A stretch of DNA of 64,000 nt, taken from Plasmopara viticola (Eukaryota; Oomycota; Peronosporomycetes; Peronosporales; Peronosporaceae). Both the position numbers and the translations under genes were made by a program. The stretch is from NCBI GenBank assembly GCA_001695595.3, contig MBPM02000021.1:620001-684000 (forward strand). The letters run 5' to 3'. Below the pieces are notes generated by a model. The model did no database searches, was not told where the DNA came from, and saw only the letters and a program-made list of their open reading frames with translations. Shown piece after piece: positions 19,546 through 30,890 of the stretch; positions within the stretch are counted from its first letter, which is position 1; each line of letters starts with the position of its first letter.

Positions 19546-22500
19546 CTAAGATTTTTTTATCAGCCCGAAAAGGCATCTTACAAAACCACCTTTAAGATGT
19601 ATTAAAGAAATAAATACAAGATCAGTTGAAGTTGTCGATAATGAATCATGCGCTTTACCTTCTGTTCCTGTTGGTCTACGAAGTAAAAGGACATAGCAAC
19701 TCGGCGGTTTGTAGTCTATTGCTATAGAACACATTACTTCTGCAATCCGGTTTGACCGTAAAATGACAAACGAGAAGATACACACGCCATACTTCAGCGC
19801 ATGCATGATTGCAAGTAGCTTCTGCGCACGAACAGGTTTGATAGCTTGGCTGTCTTCAACTCTCCCTTTACAAGACCCACTTTATTGCGAAAATCGAGGC
19901 GTTCACCTGATTAACGAAGGATTTTAGCAAACATGGAACACTAAGAGCAAGTGGAAGCGCCAAGCGACACTTGAAGTTGTTGAAGTAGCTTAGTTTATGG
20001 CATGAGAGTTCGATAGCTTTTTGGGCACATCTTTGCTTTACACTGTTATGGAGTGCTCCTGCTAATTGCGCAAATTCCTTGTAGATCCTTGAGACATGAA
20101 CTGTAGTGTCCAAGAAGCAGTCCATTTGCCATTTTGTCCTGGACACAAGCCATTCTACGGTAATTTTAGCCTTATCGAGGTCCATTCGGACGCCTATTCA
20201 ACCGACAAAGTCGTATAGGCATGAAATGCCACCGGCTCTCTAAAATCTTGATGAAAAGTTGCTCTTCTTCACTTCGTTCAGTACACGATTCAAAGCCGTA
20301 ACGTGGTCTGCGGCGACATCTTCACTTTGCTTGAGTCATTAAAAAGCTCCTATCATAATTTTGAATCCCGAACACCTTTCCGAAAAAGACAGTCAACCAT
20401 ACCTGGGCTATTGCTTAATCTCATAAAAGTGACGGGATATTGAAGCTTCCATCTGGATCCGAAAAACGACAGATGCGATATCGTTTTTACGCAATTTAAC
20501 CCGATAGAAACTTTTAGGTAGGTCCATGCACAAAAATCAATAAATTTCAGACATGGCGTCAAATGTGTCTTTCATACGCGGTTATATTCCTACCGGCAGG
20601 ATTGTCGCTTGATTCAGCTGACGATAATCATGCACAACACGCCAACCTACGGCCTCCTTGACACAAAACGTTGATGCCGTAAACGCAGGCGTACTTGGTC
20701 GAGAATGCCTGCCTAAATTATCTCTCTGGTGCATTCTTGATTTACCCTGCGCTGTTTGAGACTCAAGCACCATTTCTTGAAGAATATCGGTTTGGTGTCA
20801 TGCTTGAGAAAATAATTCGTGATTAGTATCTTCTTGTACAGGAGGTAACTCGTTAGAAAGCTCTGTGCAAGATATTGTGTCCGTATACTTGCGTAGCTTT
20901 TCATACGCCGGAATGTCCTTAAATATTTATCAACCTTGATCTTTGAAGCAATAAGCCTTCTAAGAATTTTGCGGGTTGGTGACAAAGCCTCCTTCAATGT
21001 CCTTGTCGTGACGCAACATTCAAAGGGACTGGTGTGAGGAAACTAGCTGAGTCATTTCTGCCGGCCGTGCATTATTGCCAATACAGATCGAAAATGTCGC
21101 TGCTCTGATTAATGCGAGACTTGCGTTAATTAGCATTAAACCTGTCTGGACATTGATTCTGCTGGTTTATTTGGATTGCCGTGTGGTATTTCGTGTTGAT
21201 ACGAGAGGCCATGCGCCCTGTAGCTTAGTTGATATTTGGTGTTTTCTCACGAAGCTGTATCATGCCGATGACAACATCCTTATTTTCATAAACAGGCATG
21301 ACTTGGAACGTTTTCCATTTTACAAGAGAGCCAGGTACTTGCCATGTGCACAATTTGTCGAGGGCTCAAGGGCTGGTGGAAACCAAGGTCGACTTGCATC
21401 ATCTCTCCCTTGGTCACCTCAAGCTCAAGTTTTTTCACCAAGCCTTCGAATACACTGTTAAAATTGCATCCATGATTGATAAAGACGGTGATGGGGACCT
21501 CTTGACCAGCTTTAAAAGTGCCTGAGCTTTTGCTTTAGGGAGAGCATAGAGTGCGATTTAAAAACATCGAATTACTGTCTATGTTTAGTATTGGTAATTG
21601 CAGAAAATGTGGCCGACGACGCCGCAATAGTTGCATGTAGTAAGGTTAATTCAGTCGTCATTTTTGTCGTTCTTCTTTTAAAATCACTCTGGTTTTGAGG
21701 CTGTGACTTGTTCGCACTATAGACCGATTCTATAGATTTTAGTCTTTTATTTAAACGTCTGATCTTCCTTTTATAGAGAAAAATGTGACGAGAGTGGGAC
21801 TCGAACCTACATCTTCAGATTATAAGTCTAATGAAATACCTGATACTCCATCTTATAAGTGCTGATGGATGCTAATAATGCGCCAGAAATTGTATGTTCG
21901 TAATTTGTTTAAAGGAAACATTGCTTGACTGGCAGCGTCATGTTTGAAGTGGCCGAAACACGATTTGGTCTGCTCGAGTAATGAGCAGACTCGAAGCCGA
22001 AGCCAGCTTCAATGGCCTCCTGGAGAGTACTCGGACGTCTAAGTGATCTTCTTTGCGGTCTCTTTCCGTAATAATTGTTGAGAAATAAGCCGTGTTTAAT
22101 TTTCACTATCTTCAGTTCCATTTGGGACAACAAGTCATGGAATTTTGAGATGTGCTTGTGGCTAATTTCTCTTTTTATGTAAGCCATCCAATTCCAAAGA
22201 CAATACTCAAAATTATTAGATATGAAGTGTGTGCGCAGCTGAGGTTTGAGCAGTGTCAAGTCTTGTGGTCATTTGTGCGCTCGCAGTTGGATATAAAGGC
22301 TCGATATACATTTAGCGCGGACTTGCCTACTTTTTTTAATGAAAAGTCTGACGACTCTGTTATCATCAGTGGCGTTCATTGATGTTGCATGTTTCTTCGC
22401 AATAATCCATAGATCAAAATCTTGGCCTTCTACTACGCCTTTCTTGACGCGACGAGAAACTTTAAGCGTTGCTTTGTTTCTGCTGAAGGGGTTGAATAAG

Positions 22501-25684: not shown

Positions 25685-26656
25685 CTAATTTGGATCAGTA
25701 CGTGGCCACGCGTCGGAATAATCAGCTACAAAATCACTAAATGTGCGTGGCGTGTGGCCCAGCAGTTTCTCTATCACCTCCGTCTCGACGTGTTGTTGGG
25801 CACCAGCTTCCAACGCACGAACAACTCCGATTTCCTCTTCAATAGCATCACCAGGTACACCTCGTACCCACCGCGCAGGTTGCACAGCCCACAACGGAAA
25901 ATATGAAAATGTGACCTCGTCTTGTATCCCAAGGGACAATACTTTGGCAACTTCTTTAAAAGTTAACGCTTCGGGTCCCGTCAACTTATACAAACCTCCA
26001 AGGGCATTTTTAACGAGCAACACACTTATGCATTCCGCCACATCCAACGGATGAATAAAGGCAATACGTCCTGTTTTAACGCTAATGGACAGTGTCCGTC
26101 CGCGTATCAAGTTGAATAGTCGCCCTCGTAAAAAAGCGTCCATGCCTGTAGGAGCTCGTACAATCGTCAACTTCTCTGTCCCAGAACAAAGTGTCTTCTC
26201 TAACTTCTCCTCCAGCCTCCAATTTTCTCTCCCTGCGGTGGATTTAGATTGCTCTTCCACAAACCCTTCAGTCCAAGATAACTTGACAACCCGGTGGTCC
26301 TTTGAGACGAGAGATGCCACGTTATGCTCGCAATGGCACCACTCGCTCGTCAACTCACTTACTTGATTAATGACCTCATCTCCACAGCCACTAGCAGCTA
26401 ATATAGCACCATCACATCGCCTAAGAGCTTCGCCAAGATCTCGAGAGTTGGACCAATCCGGAATCGGCTCGTGTTCGTGAGAGACTAACAGACTGGGAAA
26501 AGAAAGACGGAGGGAACGCTCAAGGTCCCGAGAAGTGGCAGCTATAAGAAAATTTACATTGTGCGCGCATGAAGAAGAGAGAGATGATGTAAAGTGGAGC
26601 AGCGAGGACGCAAAGGACAGCGAACGGCGTGTAATGGGTAGCAGAAACGTCGGCAT
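25685..26656 (-). CDS. NmrA-like NAD(P)-binding oxidoreductase family protein
   Basis: This 323-residue protein is encoded in one exon. The middle and C-terminal parts follow the NmrA/atypical-SDR plan: an insert with IVRAPTGMDAFL, then IAFIHPLDVAE, GLYKLTGPEALTFKEVAKVLS and a C-terminal HTPRTFSDFVADY, which matches the end of many NmrA-like epimerase/reductase proteins. The N-terminal glycine-rich dinucleotide motif (GxxGxxG) is not visible. The first 45 residues are Ser/Leu-rich, so either cofactor binding is altered or an upstream exon is missing from this model. The substrate is unknown. It diverges from the transporter gene, and their starts share an upstream region of about 200 bp before the riboswitch leader. 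Confidence 0.7.
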   Translation of the reverse strand: MPTFLLPITRRSLSFASSLLHFTSSLSSSCAHNVNFLIAATSRDLERSLRLSFPSLLVSHEHEPIPDWSNSRDLGEALRRCDGAILAASGCGDEVINQVSELTSEWCHCEHNVASLVSKDHRVVKLSWTEGFVEEQSKSTAGRENWRLEEKLEKTLCSGTEKLTIVRAPTGMDAFLRGRLFNLIRGRTLSISVKTGRIAFIHPLDVAECISVLLVKNALGGLYKLTGPEALTFKEVAKVLSLGIQDEVTFSYFPLWAVQPARWVRGVPGDAIEEEIGVVRALEAGAQQHVETEVIEKLLGHTPRTFSDFVADYSDAWPRTDPN

Positions 26657-26872
26657 CTTGAATGAATCCGATCTGTGACATTAAACGGAGCTACTTAACA
26701 GCTCGCGTCGGGGAATATTCCATCGTTATATTTCCCGGAAACAAGAATTTTGCTGAGACTTTACATGCTCCGTTGATTGGCTGGAATTTTACAATACTAT
26801 TGGTTTAGCTGCCCTTCTTCTTCTGTACGTAGTAGCATTCTCTTGATTCTTGTCGTCCTCTTCGTGGAGAGT

Positions 26873-27138
26873 GTATGTAAATTGACAAATCAATCAGCGA
26901 GGGGTGCCGATTGCCAGCCATGGACGAGTTCCATGCGTTGACCGGCTGAGATAAAACCCTTAGAACCTGATCCGGTTCATACCGGCGGAGGGACTGCTGC
27001 TCTTCTTTTTGTTGACGTTGCATGTGTCTTTGTGTCTACTATGTCCATTGCGATGGTCTAGATTTTCTACAGGTAACAATGATTTTACACTTACAGATAG
27101 ATTGTCATTTTGATTGATTTATATATAAACACCCACAG
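26873..27138 (+). promoter_or_regulatory. Candidate alternatively spliced leader intron containing the aptamer
   Basis: A good donor GTATGT starts at 26873. TTCTACAG ends at 27072 and ACCCACAG ends at 27138, 10 bases before the transporter ATG. At 27073 the sequence GTAACA could also act as a donor, giving an inner 66-nt intron (27073-27138). Retained sequence contains several upstream ATGs (26920, 27022, 27042, 27053, 27079), all out of frame or quickly stopped. Skipping or keeping parts of this leader would therefore decide whether the transporter is translated. Splice use is inferred, not observed. Confidence 0.55.
26895..26999 (+). promoter_or_regulatory. TPP riboswitch (THI-element) aptamer
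   Basis: All the conserved blocks of the thiamine pyrophosphate aptamer occur in order and spacing: GGGGTGCC (26901-26908), GGCTGAGA (26944-26951), ACCC (26956-26959), GAACCTGATCCGGTTC (26963-26978) and CGGAGGGA (26986-26993). Helices can be drawn: P1 CAGCG/TGCTG (26895-26899 with 26995-26999), P2 GCC/GGC (26906-26908 with 26944-26946), P3 hairpin CATGGA/TCCATG (26919-26924 with 26930-26935), a CCC/GGG pairing around the 3' arm, and P5 CCGG/CCGG (26972-26975 with 26982-26985). It lies on the sense strand in the leader of the transporter that begins at 27149. In known eukaryotic cases TPP binding controls splicing or 3' processing of thiamine genes. Here a GTATGT donor lies just upstream and two acceptors just downstream. 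Confidence 0.95.
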
Positions 27139-27148
27139 GTTTGTCGCG

Positions 27149-28719
27149 ATGCTCGCGAGTGGCGTCACGTACGGTGTCATGGCTACAACTCTACTCCTTG
27201 TCACTTTTTACGCCGTCATTATCAGTCGACGGATGGAAATTAATTCGGTCTCAACTTTTGTCAGGTACTTTAGCTGCCATTTCTATTTTCTCAATTGCCC
27301 ACTTAATAACAAGCTTTTTTAGTGCCAAAAACTCGACCACAACCTTGCGCTTAGCCTGGTGTCTCTTTTCCGCTGGCATTGGAGCTGGCACGCTCTTTTC
27401 GTTTCCTCAAATTGGGGTCGATGCCGGATCGTGGGGTGTCATTGGCTATGCGTTGTCTGGGGTCGTGGGTATGCTCGTGTTGGCTCTCGTTGGGCCATAC
27501 ATGCGCTCGGCTTTGGGTGAAAATGTTACCATGACAGACGTCGTGTCGACTCAATTTGGGTACATTATGCAACTTTACATTGGGTTTATTTCAATGTTTT
27601 ACCAATTCATTTGCCTGGCTTCGGAGTACACTTCAATTGCACAATTGACGACAATGATGTCACCGAACGCTCGACCAATTATTACAATACTTATTGTGGC
27701 ATTTCTCACAAACTTGTACTTGACTATTGGCGGGCTGCGTGCAAGTCTTGCTACTGATGTATGGCAAGGGATTGGTGTCGTCGGTCTCGTTGCTGTCGTA
27801 TGTATTGCAATGTTTTTTCACGTTTCCATTCCAGATGGTGCATGGTCAGACACGAACGTGGCGGCCTTCACGACTTCGGGCTTTGAAACACTCGTGACAT
27901 TAAATATTGCCGTCACAGCTGCCAATCTCTTTTTCACGGGCTTCTGGCAACGCGTGTATGCCGCTTACGACAATAAAACGCTACGCAATGCGTCATATAT
28001 TGCTAGCTGCATTATTGCATTGTTTACAGTGGCTCTTGCAATGGCTGGTATGGTTTCATACCTCGCGTATCCGGATGGAGATTTGTTTTTTGCGATTCTG
28101 ATCGACATGGGCCAAGGTTGGCAAGTGCTGATCATTGTTGTTATTGCCATGTTATCGAGTGGCGTGTCCGACTCGATCCAGATGGGCCTCGTAGCTGAGC
28201 TGACGACATGTTTCCCAAAGCTTTCGCTTTTACGCGCACGGATTATTTGCGGTAAGTGCAACTCTTTTTACCAACATAGTATTGTGCTGATTAATCTTGC
28301 AATTATTGATAGTACTTTTGAATGCGCCGGCTATTGCCATTGGCTACCAACAGTATGATATATTAACGCTCTACTTAATTGCTGATTTATTGTGTACGGC
28401 TGCGGTGGGTCCAATGTTGTTGTGCACTTGGAAACGTGCAACTCGCTGTGGAGCGTTGGCTGGAAGTGCTGCTGGCTTGGTTACAATCTTCATTTGCGGA
28501 GTCATTATGCAGGGCAAGTTTATGGGTGGCTTTATATGGTTCATTTTGCCGGAAGGTCTGTACTCGCAAAATAGCATGATTACTTTTATTGCCACACTTA
28601 TTGTCCCGCCAGTGGTTTCTGTGGGTGTGTCTTTGTTGACGGAATCAAAAGAGGATGAAGAGACCAAAGACGACAGCTTTCTGATTGAACTATCTCCCTT
28701 CCAGGAAAAAGCGACCTAA
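27149..28719 (+). CDS. Sodium:solute symporter-type transporter, predicted thiamine-regulated
   Basis: The exon model is 27149-27264, 27323-28251 and 28313-28719, with GT-AG introns of 58 and 61 nt whose phases restore the frame (AG+T gives Ser, G+TA gives Val). The product is 483 residues with many hydrophobic helices. Features typical of the SSS/urea-transporter-like fold include WCLFSAGIGAGTLFSFPQ, IGGLRASLATDVWQG, and a late VIAMLSSGVSDSIQMG segment. The C-terminus is a short acidic cytosolic tail. It should be a plasma-membrane, cation-coupled uptake carrier. The TPP aptamer in the leader implies that the cargo is thiamine or a thiamine precursor such as the pyrimidine moiety. This is inference from regulation, not from the protein itself. 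From memory, riboswitch-linked SSS transporters have been reported in microalgae. Confidence 0.85.
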
Positions 28720-29096: not shown

Positions 29097-30890
29097 CTAA
29101 TCAAAGGTCACAAGGTGTGAGTCCATGCTACTCAATGCAATGGCAAAGGCTTGCACGGGCGTGAATGGGTGGGCATAGTCCATTGAATACACTTGACGGT
29201 CTTGTGTGCGTCCAAATAGCATGAGCGTCTTGTCCATATCGTCGGGATGGGACAACAAAAAGTTTTTCACTGAGGCAGCGGCCACACGACCACCAAAATC
29301 CAAGCAGTAAGCTTCGAGTGATTCAATCCAAACGGGCGGTTTGTTGATTAAGTGCAATGCACGAGCAGTGTCTGGGTTCTCCACTTGTGCTAAGATTGTG
29401 TCCTCCTTGGTCTCTGGTCTCCATGGCTGTACCATCCACGACGGTGTACCATCCACTGAGCTATCCACATTCTCTACAGGAGCTACCAGTGGCAAAACCA
29501 CTCGCATTTGGCGAGGAGATTTCCCAAATGTAGCTGCGTATTGTACTGCTCCGAGCTCAAGTGGTACCTCCCCCGTAATGTCGTACATTGTGTACTGGGA
29601 CCCCATGTAGTTCTTGTCCAATCGTGCTACTGGCACCGGTGCATTCAATGGATACACTCCTTCTTCACTCTGATTAGTCAAGAGATCTAAATTGGTCGCC
29701 AACGAGATGACAAAACTTACCGACATGTCGTACTGTCGGCGTCGCACAGCGGTACACAATAACGTGTCGGAATCTTGAGTATACAACTCATAGTTGCCAC
29801 CACCACGGGTCCGAATGTAACATTGCATCATGAGTGATTGGGGTGGCAACGGTGCCATGAGAAATTGTGCCAAGAAGGAGCTATTGAGTCTTGCAGTGCG
29901 TACCAACAATTGCCGCAGCGCCACATCAGCAGGTGGAGGCGGTTCCACAGGTGCTTGGTCACATGCCCCAACGTGATCTCTTAGACTTGCTTTTTTCATC
30001 ACTTCCGAACAATACGGACACGATACTTTCATCTCATTGGCCATTCGTTGCGCATGACGCGACGTTGCCAAGAGGGAAAAGCCAATGGCTTCCCGACACA
30101 TGGGACATGACCCACGTTCACCTACCCAGCGTTCAATGCAATCTTTGCAAAAAATCTGGCCACAACAAGTGGCTTCCGTGGCGTTCGTAAACACTTCTTG
30201 GCAAATGGCACACTCGAGCATCTTGCGCGTATTTTCCAAAGCTTCAAGTTGCTCATCGCGCGGAATGGGCTTGAGCATCGGGTAGGCGAGGGTACTCACG
30301 AGGTTACTCGCCGCTAATGCCGAGGCAGCAGTGCGTTGCCCCAAGTGGCGGCTTTTCAGAGCCGAGTGAATCTCAAAGAGCATGTCGACGACGTCCCCCA
30401 CACTATGGTGCGTCTCAGTCGGCTCGGCTTCCGGCTCGGCTTCCGGTTCAACTTGGTCGTGTTCATCCACCACGTCCATTTCCTCGTGTTGATTGCTAGA
30501 GATGGGAAAAAAGCGCGTCCCCAAAGTCGAAGTGTCTTCCTCAATTACCACGTGACGTTCACTCTGACGTCGGACGTGCCGACTACTTGCCATGAGATCC
30601 ACCAGCCCTTCTCCATCCGCAAAGAAACTCGAGACTTCAATGTCCATGTCAAAGCGCTTGTGACGAGGCGTGACGCGTGGACTGCTCCGGGGGGACAGGA
30701 GAATGAGTTCACTCAACGTACGTGTTCGATGCATTTTGTTGCTGTGCTTTGGCATTGTGACGACACGAAGACGGCGCTGGGCAAACCGAGAAGCGGCGAT
30801 GGGCGCTGCACGTGCTTCCGTCGTCCCAATGCTGCTGCTTGGACTTGGCTCGCCAGAGAGACTGGGCGTCGGGATGAATGTCGCTGCCAT
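29097..30890 (-). CDS. RING finger plus Tubby C-terminal domain protein
   Basis: The gene is a single exon of 597 residues. Residues 1-200 are low complexity, with an acidic EAEPEAEP stretch near 150. A RING-type zinc finger lies at 227-265 (C227/C230, C242/C243, C248/C251, C262/C265). The usual fourth-ligand His is Gln in CCGQIFC. A second TRAF-like zinc motif follows at 291-310 (C291-x2-C294, H306, C310). From about 355 to the end is a Tubby fold: YIRTRGGG, VPLELGAVQYAATFGK-type strands, LDFGGRVAAASVKNF and a final FAIALSSMDSHL, the classic Tubby ending. RING suggests ubiquitin E3 ligase activity, and Tubby domains bind phosphoinositides, so it is probably a membrane-associated E3. RING, TRAF-type zinc finger and Tubby together are unusual outside oomycetes as far as I know. 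Confidence 0.88.
   Translation of the reverse strand: MAATFIPTPSLSGEPSPSSSIGTTEARAAPIAASRFAQRRLRVVTMPKHSNKMHRTRTLSELILLSPRSSPRVTPRHKRFDMDIEVSSFFADGEGLVDLMASSRHVRRQSERHVVIEEDTSTLGTRFFPISSNQHEEMDVVDEHDQVEPEAEPEAEPTETHHSVGDVVDMLFEIHSALKSRHLGQRTAASALAASNLVSTLAYPMLKPIPRDEQLEALENTRKMLECAICQEVFTNATEATCCGQIFCKDCIERWVGERGSCPMCREAIGFSLLATSRHAQRMANEMKVSCPYCSEVMKKASLRDHVGACDQAPVEPPPPADVALRQLLVRTARLNSSFLAQFLMAPLPPQSLMMQCYIRTRGGGNYELYTQDSDTLLCTAVRRRQYDMSVSFVISLATNLDLLTNQSEEGVYPLNAPVPVARLDKNYMGSQYTMYDITGEVPLELGAVQYAATFGKSPRQMRVVLPLVAPVENVDSSVDGTPSWMVQPWRPETKEDTILAQVENPDTARALHLINKPPVWIESLEAYCLDFGGRVAAASVKNFLLSHPDDMDKTLMLFGRTQDRQVYSMDYAHPFTPVQAFAIALSSMDSHLVTFD

Follow-up and report, generated by a model that had tools for sequence, protein, structure and literature searches.

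A thiamine pyrophosphate aptamer in the leader of a probable thiamine transporter gene of the grapevine downy mildew Plasmopara viticola

Riboswitches that sense thiamine pyrophosphate (TPP) have already been described in oomycetes. In the main text of their survey, Mukherjee et al. (2018, PMC5882874) report 37 of them in 15 of 17 genomes, where they accompany NMT1, THI4 and hydroxymethylpyrimidine (HMP) kinase genes, a group of sodium symporters that is widespread and, in two Phytophthora species, a group of urea transporters. Phytophthora riboswitches had also been noted, with SSSP named, by McRose (2014, PMC4260697). We analysed a window of 64,000 bp from Plasmopara viticola (assembly GCA_001695595.3, contig MBPM02000021.1, positions 620,001 to 684,000), which carries a TPP aptamer in front of a single SSSP-type sodium:solute symporter gene; all positions given below are those of this window. 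An earlier note on this DNA had singled out an oomycete case linked to a transporter, which in view of the two papers above is not new, and the locus resembles the cases of Mukherjee et al. in aptamer class, in kind of gene and in group of organism. The main text of PMC5882874 makes no mention of Plasmopara. Likewise, among the papers listed on riboswitches in oomycetes, Phytophthora or Plasmopara, we found none whose listing shows a Plasmopara TPP riboswitch, supplements being outside that search. The kind is thus published, and to it this well-supported member adds the species, a single-copy TPP-linked uptake gene in an apparent auxotroph, the argument on its cargo, the model of its leader and a stretch of the aptamer found also in bacteria.

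Other relatives of this arrangement are known outside the oomycetes. Algal and diatom SSSP genes also combine a solute:sodium symporter (SSS) with a TPP aptamer (PMC4260697 and PMC9544697, in the parts that treat SSSP), although in diatoms the aptamers lie in 3′ untranslated regions (UTRs) rather than in a 5′ leader as here (Llavero-Pasquina 2022, PMC9544697), a likeness drawn from descriptions of the genes. The fungal DUR31/NCU01977 is an SLC5-family thiamin transporter whose TPP-riboswitch intron is spliced in a thiamin-dependent manner, but it is related to the urea transporter DUR3 and its intron lies within the coding part, as the relevant section of PMC5997356 describes. Bacterial SSSP/ThiV genes of Halomonadaceae, Comamonadaceae, Actinomycetota and others carry the aptamer as well; those copies presumably act on translation or transcription, whereas the oomycete copy is placed among splice sites.

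The aptamer and the transporter gene

When the search with the RF00059 covariance model that the earlier note had proposed was run (cmscan, 4227 Rfam families), the TPP riboswitch aptamer was matched at 26890..27011 on the forward strand with 71.4 bits, above the gathering score of 54.3, and an E-value of 4.5e-12. The match spans model positions 1-105 of 105 without truncation and is the sole Rfam match at E <= 1 within the 801 bases from 26600 to 27400. In the model alignment, the conserved elements CUGAGA and ACCUGAU...GCGnAGGGA are present together with the complete set of helices P1-P5, P1 being formed by 26895-26899 paired with 26995-26999 and P3 holding an insert of 26 nt (26914-26939). 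Of those model pairs for which both partners are present in the sequence, only two are non-standard, A26910-C26942 and G26969-G26988, and the latter fits the non-canonical G-G pair marked for TPP-bound aptamers by Mukherjee et al. (PMC5882874). Loop L5 reads UUCAUA where the consensus is UUAAUA, a variant also seen in bacterial SSSP aptamers. The aptamer lies on the sense strand of the transporter gene, 149 nt separating P1 from the ATG at 27149. The conserved blocks, the helices, the orientation and the distance of about 150 bp given in the earlier note all hold, and its span of 26895..27149 runs from the start of P1 to the main ATG. By its match and alignment, the element is confirmed as a genuine member of the TPP aptamer class and would be an RNA switch that senses vitamin B1, and folding of the leader RNA into a TPP aptamer, the first step of the mechanism discussed below, is established as far as a covariance model can do so and can be taken as nearly certain.

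The element and the gene were each found only once. Genome-wide (92,937,831 bases in 358 contigs), where scoring covered 49 of 2415 first-look candidates, there was no second RF00059 match at E <= 0.001. When 26840-27148 was used as a DNA query, only the window itself came up, and neither a further aptamer nor a second copy or paralog of the transporter was found elsewhere in the genome.

The gene (27149..28719, forward strand) opens with the ATG at 27149, and removal of two coding introns, 27265-27322 (58 nt) and 28252-28312 (61 nt), restores an open frame of 483 aa ending at 28719. The best protein match, P0001, is an uninterrupted protein of 483 aa with 100% rounded identity to this gene model and one visible Ser/Thr difference; being uninterrupted and having a longest contig of 1839 bp, it fits a spliced transcript. 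Among the best 120 of 259 protein matches, the 41 proteins that follow (P0002-P0042) show 51-91% identity and, where named, come from Phytophthora, Plasmopara, Bremia, Peronospora, Pythium, Globisporangium and Lagenidium or bear a bare symporter name. The best named one is the ortholog of P. halstedii (91%), and the orthologs P0002-P0015 reach 73-91%. After a gap in identity come P0043-P0120 at 30-36%; many of these are unnamed, and those that carry an organism name are bacterial. No algal protein is named among these best 120 of 259. The closest non-oomycete relatives among the matches listed are riboswitch-linked bacterial SSSP genes. We call them SSSP/ThiV on the strength of a mention of Marinobacter together with TPP riboswitches in the literature (PMC4260697, in the part concerned) and not by comparison with a named SSSP sequence.

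Standard profiles make membership of the SSS/SLC5 family less obvious, and these results count against it: the window protein had no Pfam match at 1e-3 and P0001 none at 0.01, while the match to TIGR00813 of NCBIfam (40.4 bits, E 1.9e-10) fell below the cut-off of 184. Since PF00474 does recognise the ortholog of P. halstedii (24.5 bits, cut-off 22.8), we ascribe this failure to profile sensitivity. The single transporter sequence likewise had no match in PDB at E <= 1, but a profile of 35 relatives retrieved 16 PDB sequences at E <= 0.001, each of them SSS/SLC5 by name (SGLT1, SGLT2, vSGLT, DUR3, choline and multivitamin transporters and a putative sodium:solute symporter). From this profile search, the predicted family membership is clear, and the SSS-type gene and the oomycete origin recognised in the earlier note are borne out by it, by the orthologs and by the genome context.

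A few features of the family deserve mention. Phytophthora seems to hold two SSSP groups, P0003-P0011 at 77-87% and P0012 with P0015-P0018 at 68-78% identity to the protein of the window, where the genome of the window shows one. Near residue 320 of P0001, the bacterial ASSVDT is aligned with LSSGVSDS in P0001 and LASSVADS in Pythium oligandrum; SSS proteins bind sodium at this stretch, and the ion coupling of the oomycete transporter may differ to judge from these changes. P0042, a Peronospora effusa model, has 82% identity over 44% of the transporter and also matches PF17919/PF17917, presumably retrotransposon reverse transcriptase and RNase H domains, the candidate explanations being a fused gene model or an insertion.

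Leader organisation and the proposed control of expression

The leader is rich in candidate processing signals. Possible donors occur at 26825 (TCT|GTACGT), 26873 (AGT|GTATGT) and 27073 (CAG|GTAACA), possible acceptors end at 27072, 27096 and 27138, and GCATTCT at 26835 is initiator-like, with what we take to be a likeness to the oomycete initiator. Splice-site listing and isoform translation suggest a long leader intron of 266 nt (26873..27138, forward strand; donor AGT|GTATGT, acceptor CCCACAG|GTT) that would hold the whole aptamer, and an alternative short one of 66 nt (27073..27138, forward strand; donor CAG|GTAACA) that would share its acceptor. Counting isoforms from 26836 on, removal of 26873-27138 leaves a leader of 47 nt with 0 upstream ATGs, and removal of 27073-27138 leaves 247 nt with the aptamer and 6 upstream ATGs. 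The unspliced leader has 7, and removal of 26873-27072 or 26873-27096 leaves 1 or 0. Two upstream open reading frames (uORFs) stand out, both on the forward strand: one of 9 codons at 26920..26949, which starts inside the P3 insert in the context ccagccATGG, and one of 51 codons at 27022..27243 (27022-27072 + 27139-27243), which, if 27073-27138 is removed, overlaps the main start in another frame. CTACAG|GTAACA at 27067-27078 resembles a recursive splice site, where a possible acceptor directly meets a possible donor, and stepwise excision of the long leader intron via 27072/27073 is therefore also possible. On the opposite strand, a 323-aa ORF without Pfam match (25685-26656) starts about 230 nt before the aptamer; one divergent promoter may serve both this ORF and the transporter gene.

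If these candidate sites are used, the organisation would follow the logic of Type I of Mukherjee et al. (PMC5882874, main text), that is, introns in the 5′ UTR with alternative donors and a uORF, which would imply repression by TPP; the difference is that in the leader proposed here the two donors would lie on either side of the aptamer, whereas in their Type I they flank the uORF. We propose that the aptamer works as a TPP riboswitch in the 5′ leader of the one SSSP-type gene for thiamine transport in this downy mildew, which would be a thiamine auxotroph. Beyond the aptamer fold, the chain supposes that the gene product is a sodium:solute symporter importing thiamine, which homology, the bacterial riboswitch link and missing synthesis genes make very likely, and that TPP lowers expression of the gene, to which we give the same high credence. 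The next step, to which we lean with less assurance from the arrangement of signals, is that TPP acts through splicing. When TPP is scarce, 26872 would be joined to 27139, the aptamer and every upstream ATG would be lost and the transporter would be made. With ample TPP, the aptamer in its folded state would disfavour this joining, and donor 27073 or none would be used, so that uORFs in the aptamer-retaining mRNA, one overlapping the main start, would shut translation down. Last and weakest, ACCUG at 26965-26969, which belongs to J2-4/P4 in the bound state, might pair with the donor CAG|GU at 27070-27074 in the free RNA, ACCUG being the same five letters by which U1 small nuclear RNA reads CAG|GU. 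In free RNA this pairing has a probability of 0.39, excludes P4 and is reached by 2 of 300 flank shuffles. For the full chain, splicing included, we put the probability at roughly 0.55; the odds are moderate because the splicing step is included and because some folds speak against it.

Those folds, and some features of the leader, weigh against the proposal as follows. Depending on which of 30 pairs of ends is chosen, the pairing of ACCUG with CAGGU has a probability anywhere between 0.00 and 0.80, and another fold gives 0.02. The mean unpaired probability of donor 27073 shows no net change over the same 30 choices (0.39-0.49 free, 0.33-0.48 with the aptamer enforced). Donor 26873 becomes freer when the aptamer is enforced, from 0.20-0.30 to 0.41-0.50, in nine folds starting at 26780, 26800 and 26820, the opposite of what control by splicing would need; in the fold 26836-27160 it goes from 0.20 to 0.13, and in three of the 30 folds, which begin at 26880, the site lies outside the fold and its value is meaningless. 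A switch through pairing of the intron ends (26863-26892 with 27099-27137) was considered and rejected, as the duplex of -18.6 kcal/mol was equalled by 115 of 2000 shuffled pairs, and folding did not reveal a clear switch in donor accessibility. In addition, the leader splice sites and the transcript start are themselves predictions, and an ATG at 26765 would join the leader if transcription began further upstream. The splicing step would thus rest on the anatomy of the leader and on its kin, with the ACCUG:CAGGU pairing as a lead.

The aptamer could also bind TPP and regulate while staying in the leader, by blocking scanning or initiation or by altering mRNA stability. The 7 upstream ATGs of the unspliced leader and the lack of a splicing switch in the folds would suit such a mode, and a Type IV without splicing has been proposed by Mukherjee et al. 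(PMC5882874, main text). Against it stand the donor GTATGT before the aptamer and the acceptors after it, in a gene with coding introns of 58 and 61 nt, and the assignment to Type I, in the same source, of riboswitches in 5′-UTR introns of oomycete genes, transporters included. We regard regulation without splicing as the lesser possibility, though a serious one.

A further point against any regulatory role comes from two diatoms, which are also stramenopiles. There the predicted THIC and SSSP aptamers showed no riboswitch action under the conditions tested, save for a down-regulation of TpSSSP by about one-third with one supplement, according to the results section of PMC9544697. By analogy with diatom THIC, our aptamer could be a conserved relic or could sense TPP without controlling the transporter. 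We consider this improbable, since the score of 71.4 bits reflects preserved helices and binding motifs, TPP riboswitches, at any gene, occur in 15 of 17 oomycetes (PMC5882874, main text), and a useless leader would be expected to decay.

Thiamine requirement and the likely cargo

The earlier note held that the transporter carries no thiamine signature. The statement is too weak, because 77 of its 80 best bacterial relatives carry a TPP riboswitch and because knockout of a diatom SSSP, which is needed for uptake in Phaeodactylum, abolishes thiamine uptake (PMC9544697, in the part on the knockout). The bacterial count concerns the loci of the 80 best bacterial relatives with RF00059 at the 5′ end of the gene: 77 have a match at gathering score, 78 if locus L021 with 48.1 bits, below the cut-off, is counted, and only two loci, L057 and L066, both Marinobacter, have no RF00059 match at E <= 1. 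Halomonadaceae supply many of the 80, which are to that extent not independent, but matching loci are also titled Comamonadaceae, Actinomycetota, Nitriliruptoraceae, Euzebyales and Streptosporangiales. Because 15 of these genomes, taken whole (about 59.7 Mb), hold only 41 RF00059 matches, 38 of them over the cut-off, or about 2.7 per genome, the association is not due to chance. Among six ORFs scanned beside the two Marinobacter genes, three have no Pfam family and three are MalT/LuxR, peptidase C39 and ExbD, none a thiamine family. The one other gathering-score match in the 80 loci (L034, 4816-4911) lies at a DAO-family oxidoreductase gene downstream of the bacterial SSSP gene; ThiO belongs to the DAO family.

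The genome of P. viticola points in the same direction. Profile searches, which ignore introns, found thiamin pyrophosphokinase (TPK) with both domains and no match for NMT1/THI5, ThiE, hydroxyethylthiazole (HET) kinase or ThiC. Given that introns are ignored and that the published assembly (Dussert et al. 2019) holds 95.7% of BUSCO genes (PMC6660063, assembly statistics), this absence is strong but not absolute. Two results count against it. The THI4 profile gave five matches, of which two exceed the cut-off of 26.2 bits and a third does so together with its neighbours; all fall within positions 13-57 of 235, and we read them as the nucleotide-binding stretch of other proteins, not as THI4. 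PF08543 gave two matches over its cut-off, L092 and L093. By its 184.8 bits to PF00294, the former is classed as a pfkB-family sugar kinase, and the latter is a partial match of uncertain kind, pyridoxal-kinase-like by eye. The absence of synthesis genes agrees with the thiamine requirement of Phytophthora, where homologs of THI4, THI5, THI6 and THI20 were not found and three strains grow on thiamine, thiamine monophosphate (TMP) or TPP and not on HMP or HET, as stated in the relevant part of PMC10499793.

With no means of joining pyrimidine and thiazole, thiamine itself is the likely cargo. Import of a precursor, HMP or aminomethylpyrimidine (AmMP), would be conceivable in view of SAR11 ThiV, described in the part of PMC11452348 that treats it as a likely HMP transporter, which speaks against our assignment and means that cargo may vary within the family; the partial match L093 also leaves room for an HMP kinase. 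However, HMP could not be joined to thiazole where ThiE, HET kinase, THI5 and ThiC have no match, and the failure of the three Phytophthora strains to grow on HMP or HET (PMC10499793) argues the same way, so that we find import of a precursor very improbable. That thiamine rather than HMP is carried is likely, and the gene is very probably the thiamine uptake gene of P. viticola. The case bears on the cargo of SSSP-type symporters in general, as in an organism without ThiE thiamine itself is the useful cargo. Grapevine downy mildew is an obligate biotroph, and its apparent lack of thiamine synthesis together with one TPP-linked candidate uptake gene points to a testable dependence on the host.

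Relation to bacterial aptamers and neighbouring features

A stretch of 27 nt covering P4-P5 (26965..26991, forward strand) is identical in 14 of the 78 bacterial SSSP aptamers. No such identity was seen with the 13 distinct aptamers that these genomes carry elsewhere, nor with any of 15 distinct strings obtained with a looser pattern; the other aptamers were drawn from 30 loci of the 41 matches, 11 matches without a locus being left out, and the stricter pattern kept 13. GCGG takes the place of GCGT in 77 of 78 SSSP aptamers as against 4 of the 13 others. The exact 27-mer was found in one of 369 genomes of the class of genome G003, which is G003 itself, at its SSSP gene (L112), and in no IMG/VR contig; no relatives were found in IMG/VR either. 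In similarity over P4-P5, 18 distinct SSSP strings have a mean of 0.918 and the 13 others a mean of 0.821 (p 0.0002), in a comparison chosen after the strings had been seen. Closeness to the bacterial SSSP aptamers over the whole core was tried and gave no such signal (68 distinct cores, mean 0.627; 13 others, 0.650; one-sided p 0.82). Mukherjee et al. found the oomycete aptamers to be most like cyanobacterial ones (PMC5882874, main text).

That switch and gene descended jointly is no more than a lead, drawn from the identity over P4-P5. In its fuller form, the riboswitch and the transporter would have come as one bacterial SSSP/ThiV cassette, and the switch would later have been rewired for splicing by the donors, acceptors and uORFs around it, its own ACCUG competing for the donor; we hold this scenario to be speculative and on the whole doubtful. 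As a lead, the stretch common to this aptamer and bacterial SSSP aptamers bears on how eukaryotes gained the TPP riboswitch. The bacterial look of P4-P5 is also all that favours a chance match or contaminating bacterial DNA, which we discard in view of the E-value of 4.5e-12, the two introns, the oomycete orthologs P0002-P0015 at 73-91% and the position on a scaffold of a 92.94 Mb genome among neighbours with eukaryotic domains such as Gaa1 and Rap-GAP.

Elsewhere in the window, whose GC content is 45.3%, a protein of 597 aa that combines a RING finger with a Tubby C-terminal domain is encoded on the reverse strand at 29097-30890, and a tRNA-Ile gene with anticodon TAT lies on the same strand at 21785-21857, with a modest Rfam score of 38.7 bits against 29.

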